The position numbers and the translations under genes are program-made. Source: a virus. From it: DNA of 23,532 nucleotides. The first letter of the stretch is position 1. Each line of letters opens with the position of its first letter. The stretch lies in the IMG/VR virus record IMGVR_UViG_3300046734_000910, positions 1 through 23,532 of that record; one strand, 5' to 3'. Shown here one piece after another: positions 2,603 through 12,550 of this stretch. The notes under the pieces are model-generated. The model did not search any database. It was given only the letters and a program-made list of their open reading frames with translations, and had not been told where the DNA came from.

Positions 2603-5600
2603 ATGTCAGATTTATTCAAAACTATCGCCTCAATGCAGCAAGCTCAGACACGAGTTGTTGAAACTTTAGGGGTGCCATATGCCGATCCCTTTAACGAGGA
2701 GGGAGTAATTTCTGACGTCAACGACCCCCTGAAGTTGGGTAGGGTCAAAGTTATAACAGATGACGGTATTACTTCGGGTAACTGGGTGCCTGTATCTGGA
2801 TCCAATAGTGGAACTCTGAGTGCGAGATATATAGGTTCACGAGTTCTAATTGGTAAGACGAATGGCCGGTCGGAGAACATGTATGTCATAGGGGTTATTC
2901 GCAACAAACCTGACATCGATATGACTGGTAACCCTATTCAACTACCGGTCGTTGATGAAAGTATGGCGGTTTGGGAGGGATCCGCAGATGCGGGGATGAT
3001 GTGTAACCGAGGTAATGAGGGTCGGGTATACGTGCTGAGCAACGAGATGAATCAAGACGTTGTTGTCTGTCTACGTCGAACCAGTAATCAGGTGGATTCG
3101 AATTCCGCGTGGTCGTGGAAGTCTTTGACTAACGGTCTGTGGGTTGAGAAGGGGTTCAATCCCGGGAATGAGAGCACACCTGCCATTGCTCAGTCTCAAA
3201 AACAGAACCCTGGAATACCTCAGTGCACCGAGGCATTGCTAGGAGAGGTTCATGAGTTTACCGAGGACCGGGGATTTCGTACCACTACAATGGTATGTAG
3301 AAGGGACGAAAATAAGGATTTTTCCTGGATGCCAATTAGTTCTCCGCCAGTGTTTTTTCGCACAACTCTTCCGACATGTGCTGAGAAATTACATGGAATG
3401 GAAGCGGTTGTTGATAATGGTAATAATTCTGAATTAATTGTTTGCCAAAGATACCAAGGCAAAATGTTATGGGTAAAGCAGGGGAGAAGATTACCCCATA
3501 AGTTTTATAGCAAAGAGCAACCGTTAAGTCGTGTGCAGTTTACGTCTAATTTTAAAAATATAAGTGCTTTAGATGAAACTCCGGTATCATCAACAAATTA
3601 TGACTGGGTAGGTACGGAAGATATATCTACAGTTGCGTTTGATACGTTATTCAACAGTATAGATATTACCGGAACGGATCCCAAACTCAAGGAGCTATTG
3701 GAAATAGCGAGCATGGTTCCTGCTACGGCATTTGATGGGGCGCAAGTAATGCGCAAAGTGGCTACAGAATCTTTGTTAAAAAAGACAGGTATACCTGTAG
3801 AAACCTTGACTCAACAGGTACGAGCTGATCTTGAATCGGTAGGCGGGCTAACTCCTTCAACGGCTCAAATTTTGTCTGGTATTGGAAGTGCTGCTGACGT
3901 CTTAGTGAACGGTGTTTCGGATGATGACACTGGTGGGGCGTTACAAAAAATAGGAACAGATACTCTGAGGAATGCTTTGATTCTTTTAGAGCCAAAAACT
4001 GCATCTGTTATGACCGGTTTGATGTCTGGTGGAGTAATGGGGGCAGTAGACAGTGCGGTTGCTATAGGTCTTGATCAGTTACCAGATGAGGTAAATAGGT
4101 ATGCAGCCCCGGTTATTGATATTGCCAAAAATCTATTGCTATCTGACTACCCCGCGTCGTTAGACCGTATTTTAAATACTGCTGCTGGTGGAGGTCTACT
4201 CGGTGCTATTACTAGCACGATTAATAGTTCTTCAAAAAACAATATCGTAACCCCCCAATTGCTTGAAAAATTAACTACTAGTCTACAGGACGGGGTATTG
4301 GGAGAGATTCCTAAATTGTTTGGGTCTCTGTCAAATTTGGACTCCGTAGTTAAGATGCCTGCTGAGATAGGGTCGCTCCCGGTTTTGGCCTCTACGGCTC
4401 TCGGTGTTGTGGGCCAGATCGGTGTGGCACAGAAATTGTTAGGGGGCGGCGGGTTAGGCATAGAGGGGGTAGACAATCTGCTGGGAGATGGCTTCAGCTC
4501 TGCAGCAGCAATAGCGGGAGGGGTCAGCGGATTAGCCTCAGTTTTTGGGGGTGGTGTTTCTGGATTGGGGTGTCCATGTGACCCTAAGTGTCGTAAGATA
4601 TCCCACGGTCTTGATAGTGATGGTAATAATTTACTAGAAAAATGCGGATCAATGTTTGCTAATGGAGCTGATGCTAGTAACGCGACGAATGTACCAATTC
4701 CTAACAACATCGGTCCTATAGCAGAGGATATAGGACTGACTTCTACAGGTCTTGGAGACCCCCTGATTGTTAGCAATAGAAGAAATCTTAGCCAATCTAT
4801 TAGTGATGTAGAACGTATAGGTTCTATGGCTGATAGATTTTTCGATTCACGTTTTACTGATCAGGTAGAGGCTGTGGCAGAAATGACATACACCTTTGAA
4901 GCAGTTGAAAAAGCACTAAAAGCTACTGATAACAATATCACCCGTATTGAGTCTGTAGAGAAAAAACTAATTGACTCACTGTATAATTTACTCGGCTCTA
5001 TCGTTTATGGTAAAAAATCTGGCAGACTAGAGACAGCGGTTATACCCCGCCTTATCAAAGATGTTAGGGAGAATTCTCAAGCTATCAAAGATTTGTACCG
5101 TTTTACTCGCAGACTTGATTCCGTTAAGGACGGAGGCAGAGCGGGAGTAAACGTTACTAGAAGCCTTGCCGCATCTTTTCAAAACATACCCGATCTGAGT
5201 ACTCTGTTAAGTGTTAATCGTCGTGAAGCTTTAAAAGCATTACGTAATGGGGTGATTCCGGCTCACAGAGAGTGGAAGACGATGGATCCTGGCAATAGTG
5301 GGTATAGACCGGGGGGTATTGGAGAGTACGATAAAACTATACCCGATCCGTATCCCGATGAGAGAACTCTGTTTGATGGGGATCGGGTACTTTCTATCAG
5401 CGCGGAGTCTAAGTTGGGAGATAACTCACCCCCCGTAGAACGCACTCTCACAGATTTAGCGTTGTCGTCAAATCAGATAGATACGTTAAGGGGATTACCA
5501 TCCAGAGATGGCACAACACTTGATCCTGATCTTATCCAGGCTGGTAGCGATTTGTTGAACGGTATTAATAATCAACTCGATTTGTTGTCTAACATCCCAG

Positions 5601-5674
5601 AACCTGACGATTCGGTTGAAGGCTCATTATACGACTCTATATCAGACAGAAAAGGTCAGAAAAACTGTCAATGA
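2603..5674 (+). CDS. Baseplate spike-like protein: OB-fold, C-C-W repeats, Cys cluster
   Basis: A 1023-residue structural protein, probably at the central baseplate. Residues about 33-102 (GVISDVNDPLKLGRVKVITD ... YVIGVI) read like the OB-fold of gp5/gpV/VgrG spike proteins, where 'G.V....D....GRVkV' is the hallmark. Residues 131-292 hold three divergent copies of a small unit with a Cys, a Gly about 6 residues later, a second Cys about 22-24 residues after the first, and Trp about 9-16 residues further on (C134/C156/W170; C208/C232/W242; C259/C281/W290). Residues about 415-656 are Gly/Ala-rich and helical, followed by a CPCDPKC cluster (C657, C659, C663, then H668, C681). Residues about 735-845 look coiled-coil. 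GGAGA at 2590-2594 is a suitable ribosome site. The stop overlaps the terminase start (ATGA). It could instead be a tape-like or hub-associated protein; the OB-fold is the best-supported part. Confidence 0.6.
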   Translation: MSDLFKTIASMQQAQTRVVETLGVPYADPFNEEGVISDVNDPLKLGRVKVITDDGITSGNWVPVSGSNSGTLSARYIGSRVLIGKTNGRSENMYVIGVIRNKPDIDMTGNPIQLPVVDESMAVWEGSADAGMMCNRGNEGRVYVLSNEMNQDVVVCLRRTSNQVDSNSAWSWKSLTNGLWVEKGFNPGNESTPAIAQSQKQNPGIPQCTEALLGEVHEFTEDRGFRTTTMVCRRDENKDFSWMPISSPPVFFRTTLPTCAEKLHGMEAVVDNGNNSELIVCQRYQGKMLWVKQGRRLPHKFYSKEQPLSRVQFTSNFKNISALDETPVSSTNYDWVGTEDISTVAFDTLFNSIDITGTDPKLKELLEIASMVPATAFDGAQVMRKVATESLLKKTGIPVETLTQQVRADLESVGGLTPSTAQILSGIGSAADVLVNGVSDDDTGGALQKIGTDTLRNALILLEPKTASVMTGLMSGGVMGAVDSAVAIGLDQLPDEVNRYAAPVIDIAKNLLLSDYPASLDRILNTAAGGGLLGAITSTINSSSKNNIVTPQLLEKLTTSLQDGVLGEIPKLFGSLSNLDSVVKMPAEIGSLPVLASTALGVVGQIGVAQKLLGGGGLGIEGVDNLLGDGFSSAAAIAGGVSGLASVFGGGVSGLGCPCDPKCRKISHGLDSDGNNLLEKCGSMFANGADASNATNVPIPNNIGPIAEDIGLTSTGLGDPLIVSNRRNLSQSISDVERIGSMADRFFDSRFTDQVEAVAEMTYTFEAVEKALKATDNNITRIESVEKKLIDSLYNLLGSIVYGKKSGRLETAVIPRLIKDVRENSQAIKDLYRFTRRLDSVKDGGRAGVNVTRSLAASFQNIPDLSTLLSVNRREALKALRNGVIPAHREWKTMDPGNSGYRPGGIGEYDKTIPDPYPDERTLFDGDRVLSISAESKLGDNSPPVERTLTDLALSSNQIDTLRGLPSRDGTTLDPDLIQAGSDLLNGINNQLDLLSNIPEPDDSVEGSLYDSISDRKGQKNCQ

Positions 5675-9508: not shown

Positions 9509-12500
9509 CTACGCAGCTCCGCAATCTAAGTCGTTGTAAATCTCCCGGGCATACTGTTGTCTCTCTAAACTTGCCTGTCCTCCAGATCTTTCGTAAAATT
9601 CATCAAAACGGTCTGCAGCCTGTTCAGGGCTACCGGCAGAGTTTAATGCTTTTACAGTTTCTGGACCATTATAGTCTGCTCCTTTAAGTTCCTGGACAAA
9701 CCATTGCATTTGGAGGTTAAAATCAGTCCAGGGTTTGCCTGTGGAGCTGGCAAGTCTGTCTAATCCTACCTTTCGATCACACCACTGAAATATTCCTATG
9801 CATCCTCTTCCTTGAGAGTCCAAAAAGTTCCTGTTTTTATTATCACTTGCAGGGTCAAGATTACCTGACGATTCCGCTATCGCATTACCTACAACCCCTG
9901 CATACCCCGCTTTTGTATTAATTCCCCCCTGTCTAGCTGCATTGATAATAGAGTTAACGCGGTCTTTGGGATATTTTGCACCTCGATATTGACAATTAGC
10001 TGGGGGATATTCACTCGTTACCGAGGCACCAGAATCCCGTTGTGTTCCTAATGACTGGGTAATTTGCTGTGCTTCAGCGCACAAAACCTCACACGATGTT
10101 CTTCCGTCTCCTAGCTTCCAGCACAAGTCTCCGAGTGACCTTATGTATCCGTAGTAGTCTTTGTACTCTAGTTCTGTTTTCGCAAAACTCGAAATATACT
10201 CTTCAAATCGGGGAATTTTAATCCGAGATGTCGCATTTCCCCAGTCGCTAACTCCAGAGATCGATACAAGTAAATCTCCTTGTGACCATTTGTAGGTGGC
10301 ATCTTTTACAAACCATTTAGAAAAGCGACCAGCAATCCATACACCAGGATCTATATCAGAAGGTCTACCTTTTTCTACCCATTCGTCATAATTGGTGATG
10401 AATGAGAGAATAGTTCTTCCCGGCACGATGCGTAATGCACGCGGTACTCCTTTGAATTCTGTTTGAATATTAGCTCCAATCGCGACAGGAGTAGACTGTA
10501 CTCCAGTGCCGTATCCTGACCCCGATGACGTTTGGCCGGGTGTACCTGTTATGGATGAGGGGGCTAAATGGGCGAGCCTCATATCCCCCTTGGGAGTACT
10601 AATTGTGATATAATTACCAAATCTCCCCCCACACTCCTTATCCCCATTCTGGCAGTTGCTTTCGTTTACTTCTTTTAGAAAAGAGCCGTTTATAAGGTAT
10701 ATGGGAGTACCTTCTGTCGCACCTATATCTATCCCTTTATGTTCAGTAGAAGCGCCAGGGGTTGGTGATTGTCTCGGTCCGAATCCGGAAGTGACATTCC
10801 CGGAAACTGAGACGTATTCCCTAGCATCAGACTCCGTAATTCGTCTTCTATCTGTCCATTCTATATGGACATGAGAGTTTGTGCTAGTTCCAGTGTTACC
10901 TACTTTGGCAACAAAAATAGAACTAGGCAAAGACGAAGGCGACTGATTGGAAGGAGATTGAGGGTTTCCGGCTTTTACTAGTCCTACATCTTTGAGTTCC
11001 TCGTCTGTAAGCTCTTTGACCGGAATAGCATATTTCCATACAATAGAAGGTGATATGGTCACGGTGTCCGATTGTCCTACACCGGGAACATAAAACCGTA
11101 CAAACTCAGGTTTATCGGATGATGCTTCGCCGAGTTTCTGATTCATCTCGACCTTAGAACCCATCTTCAGCTTATTGACGTCTATGTTGGTAAGATTGGT
11201 AGTATGCTGGTAGATAGAGCTATTTTTGCATTTTTTCTGTTCATTACAAAAACGTAAAAAATAATTCGTTCCGATCAAAATGTGACCTTGGTCGGCTGAA
11301 ACGGGGCTGACAATTTTACCGTCCAGTAATGCTACTGGCTCGGAACCGGTTACTGAGATACCATACATATTGACTTTTTGTAATCTTTCAGTAGTAACTT
11401 CGGGGCCACTGCTTTTCCATGCTAACCCGCTGGAAGAGTACTTGTCACTAAACCTTTTATCTAATACATCAAATTGACCGGGGAAAGATGTAAGATCGGT
11501 ACGAGCTTTTTTAAATTTAGCTTCGCGACGCTGAGGATAGATTTCATCTATCGTGAATTTCTCATTCTCTTTTATTCCCCCAACGCTGTAGTCATACCCC
11601 AGACCCCGGTTCATGTCGTATTCGAGGTTTAGGTTTAATGTATTCGGGTCCACGTTACCCGAGATGCTGTAACCCTCATATAGACCTACACCCAAGTAGA
11701 AAACCGAACACCCCTGGTTAATATTAGCCCTAGTACACATTGATATCTTGCGGGCATATTCGGCAGTAGGTAGTGATAGGTAATTACCACCTACACTATC
11801 TAAATACTTCTTAATAACTTCTCCCGCAGTGACATTCTTCTCTTTAAAAGATTGTGGCATCACATATCTTTTTGTGTCCGTATCAGTAGGATCAGTACAA
11901 AAGGAGACCTGGTAACCCTGCTCTTCTACTATTTTTTGTAAGTTCTCTTCTAAAGTTCTGTTCTCTTCGAGCTGAATATTTTGGAGAGACTGGTTAAATG
12001 TGACAACTTGGGGGTGTACTCCGCTTAGAGATACTTGGGGGTAAGATTTTCCGTGGACGATATTAAACCCCTGGAGCCTAAAGTAGCTGTCCATGCCAAA
12101 CTTCACTCCGGCCACATCATAGTAAAGTTTTACTAAGATATGAGCGAAGTTCCCAAGGCCCCCTCTTCGGGATAAGGGGTCTTCTATTTCAGGGAACGGG
12201 CGACACTTGCCCGAAGCCGAGGTCTCACCTTCTTTGCAGGCTGGTAAGAGGATGTGGTTTGCTGCTGCCTGAGTTACATTCCCATAAGCAGCAGCGCTGT
12301 CGAACAGGGCGGCCCAGGCAATCCCCGTCATATAGGGGTCGGATAAAGTGACATTAACTGTCGACGCACCTAGGGAGTTTACGAATTGTGATGCCTCGGT
12401 TTCATAGTCAGCATTCAAGGTTATCCCATTAGGATTCCACCTCATGTTGACAGTTGCGTCGACAACTTGTTTCTCGCTGAAGACAATAAGTTTACTGCTA

Positions 12501-12550
12501 GCGTAGGGACGGTACCCTACAGCACATCGGCAGCGATACAGGCTATGCAC
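9509..12550 (-). CDS. Tail hub / tail lysin with reordered M23 peptidase and C-terminal lysozyme-like domain
   Basis: A 1013-residue protein, probably the baseplate hub that carries the phage's cell-wall drill. Residues about 1-500 are beta-rich with many paired Cys and fit a hub-like part (T4 gp27 / gpD role, by inference). Residues 541-670 carry every M23 zinc-peptidase motif, but in unusual order: GNTGTSTNSHVHIEW (H560, H562) first, then SGFGPR, HKGIDI (H604, D608), GTPIY, RFGNYITI and HLA (H661). Residues about 855-1005 resemble a phage tail lysozyme: NAIAESSGNLDP with likely catalytic E893, then GCIGIFQWCD, GKPW and LQMQWFVQEL. The frame has a stop just upstream, so the GTG at 12550 is the earliest start; no clear ribosome site is seen and a later start is possible. 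It follows the 240-residue gene by 10 nt. Two wall hydrolases in one virion protein suit peptidoglycan cutting at entry. Confidence 0.82.
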   Translation of the reverse strand: MHSLYRCRCAVGYRPYASSKLIVFSEKQVVDATVNMRWNPNGITLNADYETEASQFVNSLGASTVNVTLSDPYMTGIAWAALFDSAAAYGNVTQAAANHILLPACKEGETSASGKCRPFPEIEDPLSRRGGLGNFAHILVKLYYDVAGVKFGMDSYFRLQGFNIVHGKSYPQVSLSGVHPQVVTFNQSLQNIQLEENRTLEENLQKIVEEQGYQVSFCTDPTDTDTKRYVMPQSFKEKNVTAGEVIKKYLDSVGGNYLSLPTAEYARKISMCTRANINQGCSVFYLGVGLYEGYSISGNVDPNTLNLNLEYDMNRGLGYDYSVGGIKENEKFTIDEIYPQRREAKFKKARTDLTSFPGQFDVLDKRFSDKYSSSGLAWKSSGPEVTTERLQKVNMYGISVTGSEPVALLDGKIVSPVSADQGHILIGTNYFLRFCNEQKKCKNSSIYQHTTNLTNIDVNKLKMGSKVEMNQKLGEASSDKPEFVRFYVPGVGQSDTVTISPSIVWKYAIPVKELTDEELKDVGLVKAGNPQSPSNQSPSSLPSSIFVAKVGNTGTSTNSHVHIEWTDRRRITESDAREYVSVSGNVTSGFGPRQSPTPGASTEHKGIDIGATEGTPIYLINGSFLKEVNESNCQNGDKECGGRFGNYITISTPKGDMRLAHLAPSSITGTPGQTSSGSGYGTGVQSTPVAIGANIQTEFKGVPRALRIVPGRTILSFITNYDEWVEKGRPSDIDPGVWIAGRFSKWFVKDATYKWSQGDLLVSISGVSDWGNATSRIKIPRFEEYISSFAKTELEYKDYYGYIRSLGDLCWKLGDGRTSCEVLCAEAQQITQSLGTQRDSGASVTSEYPPANCQYRGAKYPKDRVNSIINAARQGGINTKAGYAGVVGNAIAESSGNLDPASDNKNRNFLDSQGRGCIGIFQWCDRKVGLDRLASSTGKPWTDFNLQMQWFVQELKGADYNGPETVKALNSAGSPEQAADRFDEFYERSGGQASLERQQYAREIYNDLDCGAA

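Follow-up and report, generated by a model that had tools for sequence, protein, structure and literature searches.

Order of the M23 motifs

How should a peptidase be read when its motifs stand in the wrong order? The stretch of viral DNA analysed here (the window, 23,532 nucleotides, positions 1 to 23,532 of IMG/VR record IMGVR_UViG_3300046734_000910) raises this question through ORF 9509-12550(-), whose product of 1013 residues had been described in a first-pass annotation as carrying an M23 zinc peptidase with its signatures reversed, most simply explained by a circular permutation in which the old C- and N-termini have been joined. A script scan of the protein recovered this arrangement at the positions that the annotation had given (Table 1). 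The GNTG...H560-V-H562 block, normally the last one, precedes SGFGPR, H604xxxD608 and H661 (the histidine of the YaHL motif), and all five metal and catalytic residues of the M23 enzymes are present. Each of them occurs a single time, as had been claimed: when every histidine motif was located, the whole protein was found to have 11 histidines, one HxxxD and one HxH. The only HxxxD is the one formed by H604 and D608, and therefore there is no second motif of this kind able to partner H562. The linear order of the family (HxnD, then HxH) is found neither in the window nor in the full-span permuted sequences described below.

By homology to the LytM-type enzymes, with residue roles as given in PMC9662197, H562, H604 and D608 would bind the zinc ion, and H560 and H661 would serve in catalysis by activating water and stabilising the transition state in the manner of LytM. 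The Pfam model of the family (PF01551, cut-off 28.7 bits) scores 26.7 bits on the whole protein and 29.0 on the trimmed domain, and it reaches 44.5 and 47.0 bits on the permuted relatives from phage S-TIM54 and from a freshwater T4-like contig (L067).

Table 1. Features of the 1013-residue protein; positions are those of the window.
Feature	Residues	Position	Strand	Basis
Virion (probable tail/baseplate) protein carrying the permuted M23		9509..12550	-	ORF and full-length relatives
Upstream module, probably degenerate M23-like (barrel-sandwich), ordinary order, catalytic residues absent	405-490	11081..11338	-	hhalign, weak
Permuted M23 domain core	543-665	10556..10924	-	Tandem-M23 alignments, AlphaFold, permuted-profile census
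Old C-terminal block, now first, GNTGTSTNSHVHIEWT	551-566	10853..10900	-	Matches ordinary M23 profile positions 88-108
GNTG motif	from 551	10900-10889	-	Script scan
HVH motif	560-562	10873-10865	-	Script scan
New connection, old C-terminus to old N-terminus, DRRRITESDAREYVSVSGN	567-585	10796..10852	-	Between the two aligned blocks
Old N-terminal block, VTSGFGPR (586-593) and H604-K-G-I-D608	586-608	10727..10795	-	Pfam M23 match, invariance in alignment A2
SGFGPR motif	588-593	10789-10772	-	Script scan
HKGID motif	604-608	10741-10727	-	Script scan
A660-H661-L662, predicted catalytic histidine, now the C-terminal end of the domain	660-662	10565..10573	-	Invariant in A2; final model strand 655-662
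HLA motif	661-663	10570-10562	-	Script scan
Phage tail lysozyme domain, C-terminal	871-1007	9530..9940	-	PF18013

Tests of circular permutation

A circularly permuted M23 domain should hold all segments of the ordinary one, each of them once, in cyclic order and contiguous over the junction of a duplicated ordinary sequence, and this is the pattern that we found. In hhalign, a profile of permuted domains aligned to a single ordinary M23 in two separate blocks whose order is exchanged (101 and 51 in score), and to a tandem-duplicated ordinary M23 as one block of 108 columns running over the junction (score 140). The same was seen with HMMER, where all nine ordinary M23s gained between 18 and 27 bits with the permuted profile when they were duplicated, with a match crossing the junction, and the control, an ordinary profile on the same duplicated constructs, changed by about -3 bits. 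When the ordinary profile was applied to permuted domains, it found first the C-block (model positions 82-117) and then the N-block (model positions 2-72) in 19 out of 19, some of the individual block matches being weak, notably those of phage P60. Solved M23 structures (3slu, 6ue4 and 6jn7) also gave a match in two pieces in swapped order.

From these alignments and the structural model described below, it is very probable that residues 543-665 are a LytM-type M23 zinc peptidase domain in circularly permuted form, with predicted activity. The sequence shows each element of an ordinary M23 once and in cyclic order, with about 20 residues bridging the old C-terminus and the old N-terminus and with the new ends in the loop from the HLx strand to the GxxIGxxGxTG strand. 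The joining of the old termini proposed in the annotation is in this way strongly supported by the tandem-duplication alignments and the swapped matches to solved enzymes, as well as by two further lines of evidence: the conservation of the catalytic positions, and the existence of natural versions whose own first or last residues coincide exactly with the new termini.

Conservation and predicted structure

The closest annotated relatives of the window are the S-TIM5-type cyanophages (Aurunvirus), and full-length relatives of the protein were found in S-TIM54, S-TIM66, S-TIM61 and S-TIM5 and in four IMG/VR loci (L004, L005, L055 and L056). The permuted order was kept in all the full-length relatives that we read (S-TIM54, 66 and 5, and the four loci) and in a partial one (L006), at identities of 28-54%. 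Chance can be excluded as the source of the order because it is kept both in these Aurunvirus-type relatives and in other protein families. An assembly artefact was also rejected, as the order is carried by the sequenced isolates S-TIM5, S-TIM54, S-TIM66, P60 and S-EIV1 and by Acinetobacter and Moraxella phages.

Alignment A2 comprises 22 sequences, 24-40% identical to the window, which come from three unrelated protein contexts. It shows no substitution at H560, H604, D608 or H661, and position 562 holds either H or D; mixed alignments of nine and ten sequences were too diverged for pattern scans. The frequent replacement of HxH by HxD might indicate that the permuted fold is inactive on peptidoglycan and acts instead as a structural or peptidoglycan-binding module, all the more as inactive factors with a LytM fold are known, e.g., EnvC (PMC9662197). 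However, we consider this unlikely, given the complete set of five residues in the window, the invariance of the other four positions throughout A2 and the presence of a lysozyme partner both in the window protein and in gp33 of P60. In the permuted relatives with HxD, which are the majority, the zinc ligation may be different or weaker.

The AlphaFold model of residues 535-690, obtained with an alignment of only 22 rows, had a mean pLDDT of 82.9 and a pTM of 0.77, with values below 50 at the two ends only and mostly 84-97 along the core (543-665). Its strands are located where M23 enzymes have them (545-550, 560-565 and the final one at 655-662), so that the permuted chain is predicted to fold into one compact domain. 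With the core as query, Foldseek returned no significant hit from the PDB, which neither supports nor refutes the permutation because an aligner that works in sequential order would be expected to miss a permuted fold. In BFVD, E 0.001 was passed by two long viral proteins, and the two that followed them had a probability of 1.00. The top matches with the same topology include P60 and a protein of 851 residues that, from its length, we take to be of the Moraxella tape-measure type. The full-length model also gave Foldseek matches to lysostaphin and LytM, but we have not used them as evidence, the model being of low confidence and the matching part not being given.

Trimers are frequent among phage hub and tail proteins. 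In such a trimer, the GNTG-HVH strand of one chain could complete the HxxxD half of its neighbour by domain swapping, and the order would be reversed only in appearance. This is very unlikely, since the single chain folds confidently in AlphaFold, the linker goes down to about 20 residues and the permuted order recurs across proteins that differ widely in size and context.

Spread among virion proteins

Well beyond the cyanophage relatives, tblastn with the window domain matched tail proteins of Moraxella Mcat phages over both motif groups, which read GNSG...HLD, HRGID and LLHL in that order, and tape-measure proteins of Acinetobacter and Moraxella have the permuted order too. It is also found in a protein of 249 residues of phage S-EIV1, annotated as "peptidase M23 family", and in 36 IMG/VR relatives of S-EIV1. 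These S-EIV1-type proteins, of 210-250 residues, start only some 15-20 residues ahead of the HxD motif, so nothing upstream supplies the missing half. At the other extreme, gp33 of P60, with relatives in S-CBP1 and DSL-LC07, carries the module at its very C-terminus and ends a few residues past the final VHG motif; therefore nothing downstream supplies it either. The permuted domain is present as well in a T4-like freshwater cluster, within a protein adjoining gp27- and gp5-like genes, in a tape-measure-like protein of Leptolyngbya and in a 218-residue ORF of another cyanobacterial genome.

As suggested in the first-pass annotation, we searched with a permuted profile. Built from 19 diverse domains of the permuted type, it had end-to-end matches in 152 locus records (some of which overlap on the same contig), corresponding to 92 distinct sequences. 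The full motif set is present in 91 of them, the remaining one (L052) lacking the last motif where its contig ends. The third-ligand motif is HxD in 80 of these 91 and HxH in 11, and the spacing between it and HxxxD ranges from 31 to 68 residues over the 92 sequences. There were also 273 partial matches, and those that we read by eye were mostly ordinary M23s. Among sampled cellular genomes, a match covering almost the whole profile was present in 2 of 386 cyanobacteria and in 1 of 369 gammaproteobacteria, counts that include centre genomes picked for carrying the permuted domain. Two PHROG tape-measure families (3519 and 1506) span the permuted stretch from end to end, and they are not named as permuted M23.

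Several candidates turned out to have the ordinary order and were discarded: Synechococcus phage ACG-2014f, Stenotrophomonas RAS14, many cellular and fecal-phage matches, and the internal protein of cyanophage A-4L (PDB 9k2v_E), which had been considered as a possible solved structure of a permuted M23. The ordinary-order M23 of one fecal phage (L011) likewise has HLD. Among T4-like phages both arrangements occur, the M23 of cyanophage ACG-2014f (L015) being ordinary and that of the freshwater contig beside gp27- and gp5-like genes (L067) permuted.

Directly upstream of the permuted domain, residues 405-490 match ordinary M23 in hhalign with a probability of 53% (E 1e-4, score 30; five other stretches scored 17 or less), and the corresponding module of the S-TIM5 and S-TIM66 relatives matches Pfam M23 with an E-value of 2e-4. 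This probable degenerate module would favour the idea that HVH is the end of an upstream M23 copy and HxxxD the start of a second one, neither being a complete enzyme, but we rejected this scarcely credible reading in view of the N-terminal S-EIV1-type and C-terminal P60 versions, the invariance of the catalytic residues of both halves over highly diverged families, and the upstream module itself, which has no HxxxD and already possesses its own GxKVxxxQxLG...RFYV end. Relatives keeping one half and losing the other were not seen among the 92 sequences, in a search that favoured full-span matches.

Origin of the permutation

Trees were built from rotated alignments, and in them a single branch separates the 19 permuted domains from 33 ordinary ones. 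The support of this branch was 79/98 with all columns, 99/98 with the well-filled columns and 86/96 without the longest branches, values that come from a short alignment in which the ordinary sequences were gathered by their similarity to the permuted ones and P60 and L257 form long branches. The trees are compatible with a single origin that preceded the present protein contexts. Most likely, an M23 gene would have been duplicated and then trimmed, on one occasion as far as the trees can support it, and the permuted module would have spread afterwards among phage virion proteins. One may speculate that the degenerate module at residues 405-490 is a relic of the tandem that gave rise to the permutation.

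The annotation had also suggested that selection may have favoured the arrangement as a way of threading the enzyme in between hub domains. This receives no support, because the module is N-terminal in the small proteins, at the extreme C-terminus in gp33 of P60 and internal in the tape-measure proteins, and because the trees allow a single origin that predates these contexts. On balance, we favour the view that the permuted M23s form a single ancient lineage of peptidoglycan peptidases, carried largely by phages, which goes back to one permutation and spread over virion proteins of myo-, sipho- and podoviruses, most of its members having an altered zinc site (HxD).

Comparison with known enzymes

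Compared with M23 peptidases such as LytM, lysostaphin, ShyA and phi29 gp13, the motifs and catalytic residues are alike and both halves match the profiles significantly. What differs is that the halves are reversed, with the new termini located in the loop that follows the HLx strand, and that two loops on the side of the groove, the one ahead of HxxxD and the one behind HxH, have become a single connection. There is a precedent in another fold of peptidoglycan hydrolases, the circularly permuted NlpC/P60 enzymes (YaeF/G6R and LRAT-like families), in which the catalytic residues come in swapped order (PMC6403190); unlike M23, these have an unrelated cysteine peptidase fold, and no permuted M23 case is mentioned in that work. 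Permuted forms are not mentioned either in the 2022 review of M23 enzymes, "one fold, many functions" (PMC9662197). We found no description of a permuted M23, LytM or lysostaphin in the open literature, subscription journals and preprints lying outside our search. The permuted M23 recurs in many unrelated phages and had apparently escaped description.

M23 is among the commonest families of peptidoglycan hydrolases, and a natural, conserved permutation indicates that its fold tolerates new ends and which of its loops can open. Because of the permutation, such domains are covered only partly by the models of Pfam and NCBIfam, and many tape-measure and virion proteins therefore go unrecognised as wall-degrading. 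The permuted M23s provide a testable set of virion-borne enzymes, and a ready permuted scaffold for lysin work.

The protein and its possible role in entry

The homologous gene in the S-TIM phages is annotated as a virion structural protein, and the C-terminal domain of the window protein matches PF18013 with an E-value of 6.9e-24 (85.1 bits, above the cut-off of 28.2), its relative in the PDB being the lysozyme of phi29 gp13 (3csr/3csq). The annotation and the lysozyme together suggest that the protein may be a tail hub. Full-length modelling gave a poor result (pLDDT 47), and no hub fold (gp27-like) was matched when the PDB was searched by profile.

A lysozyme and a permuted M23 are paired in the window protein and in gp33 of P60, and phi29 gp13 and Gp16 of PDB 9m7n similarly combine lysozyme and M23 in one virion protein. 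In these last two the lysozyme comes first and the M23 after, whereas in the window the permuted M23 precedes the lysozyme; in gp33 of P60 the lysozyme is first. The recurrent pairing suggests that glycan and peptide bonds are attacked together when the phage enters: the virion-borne M23 would cut the peptide cross-links and the C-terminal lysozyme the glycan strands, and the host wall would be opened in this way for the DNA to enter. The baseplate hub gp15 of cyanophage A-1(L) combines several domains that degrade the wall, one of them a peptidase for which lysis of host cells was demonstrated (PMC10966104), and resembles the window protein in being a cyanophage virion protein of this kind. 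M23 is not mentioned in that work, and the PDB chains matched by the M23 profile did not include any from A-1(L).

Two of the relatives (L004 and L005) have an insertion, located about 230-260 residues N-terminal of the permuted M23, with the motifs GHADA...NER...EIHND...GRSGV, which looks amidase-like by eye, yet it had no match in Pfam or the PDB. Elsewhere in the window, an ORF of 1023 residues at 2603-5674 (+) has a weak match to the Phage_base_V OB-domain (E 0.0013) and is a candidate spike protein.
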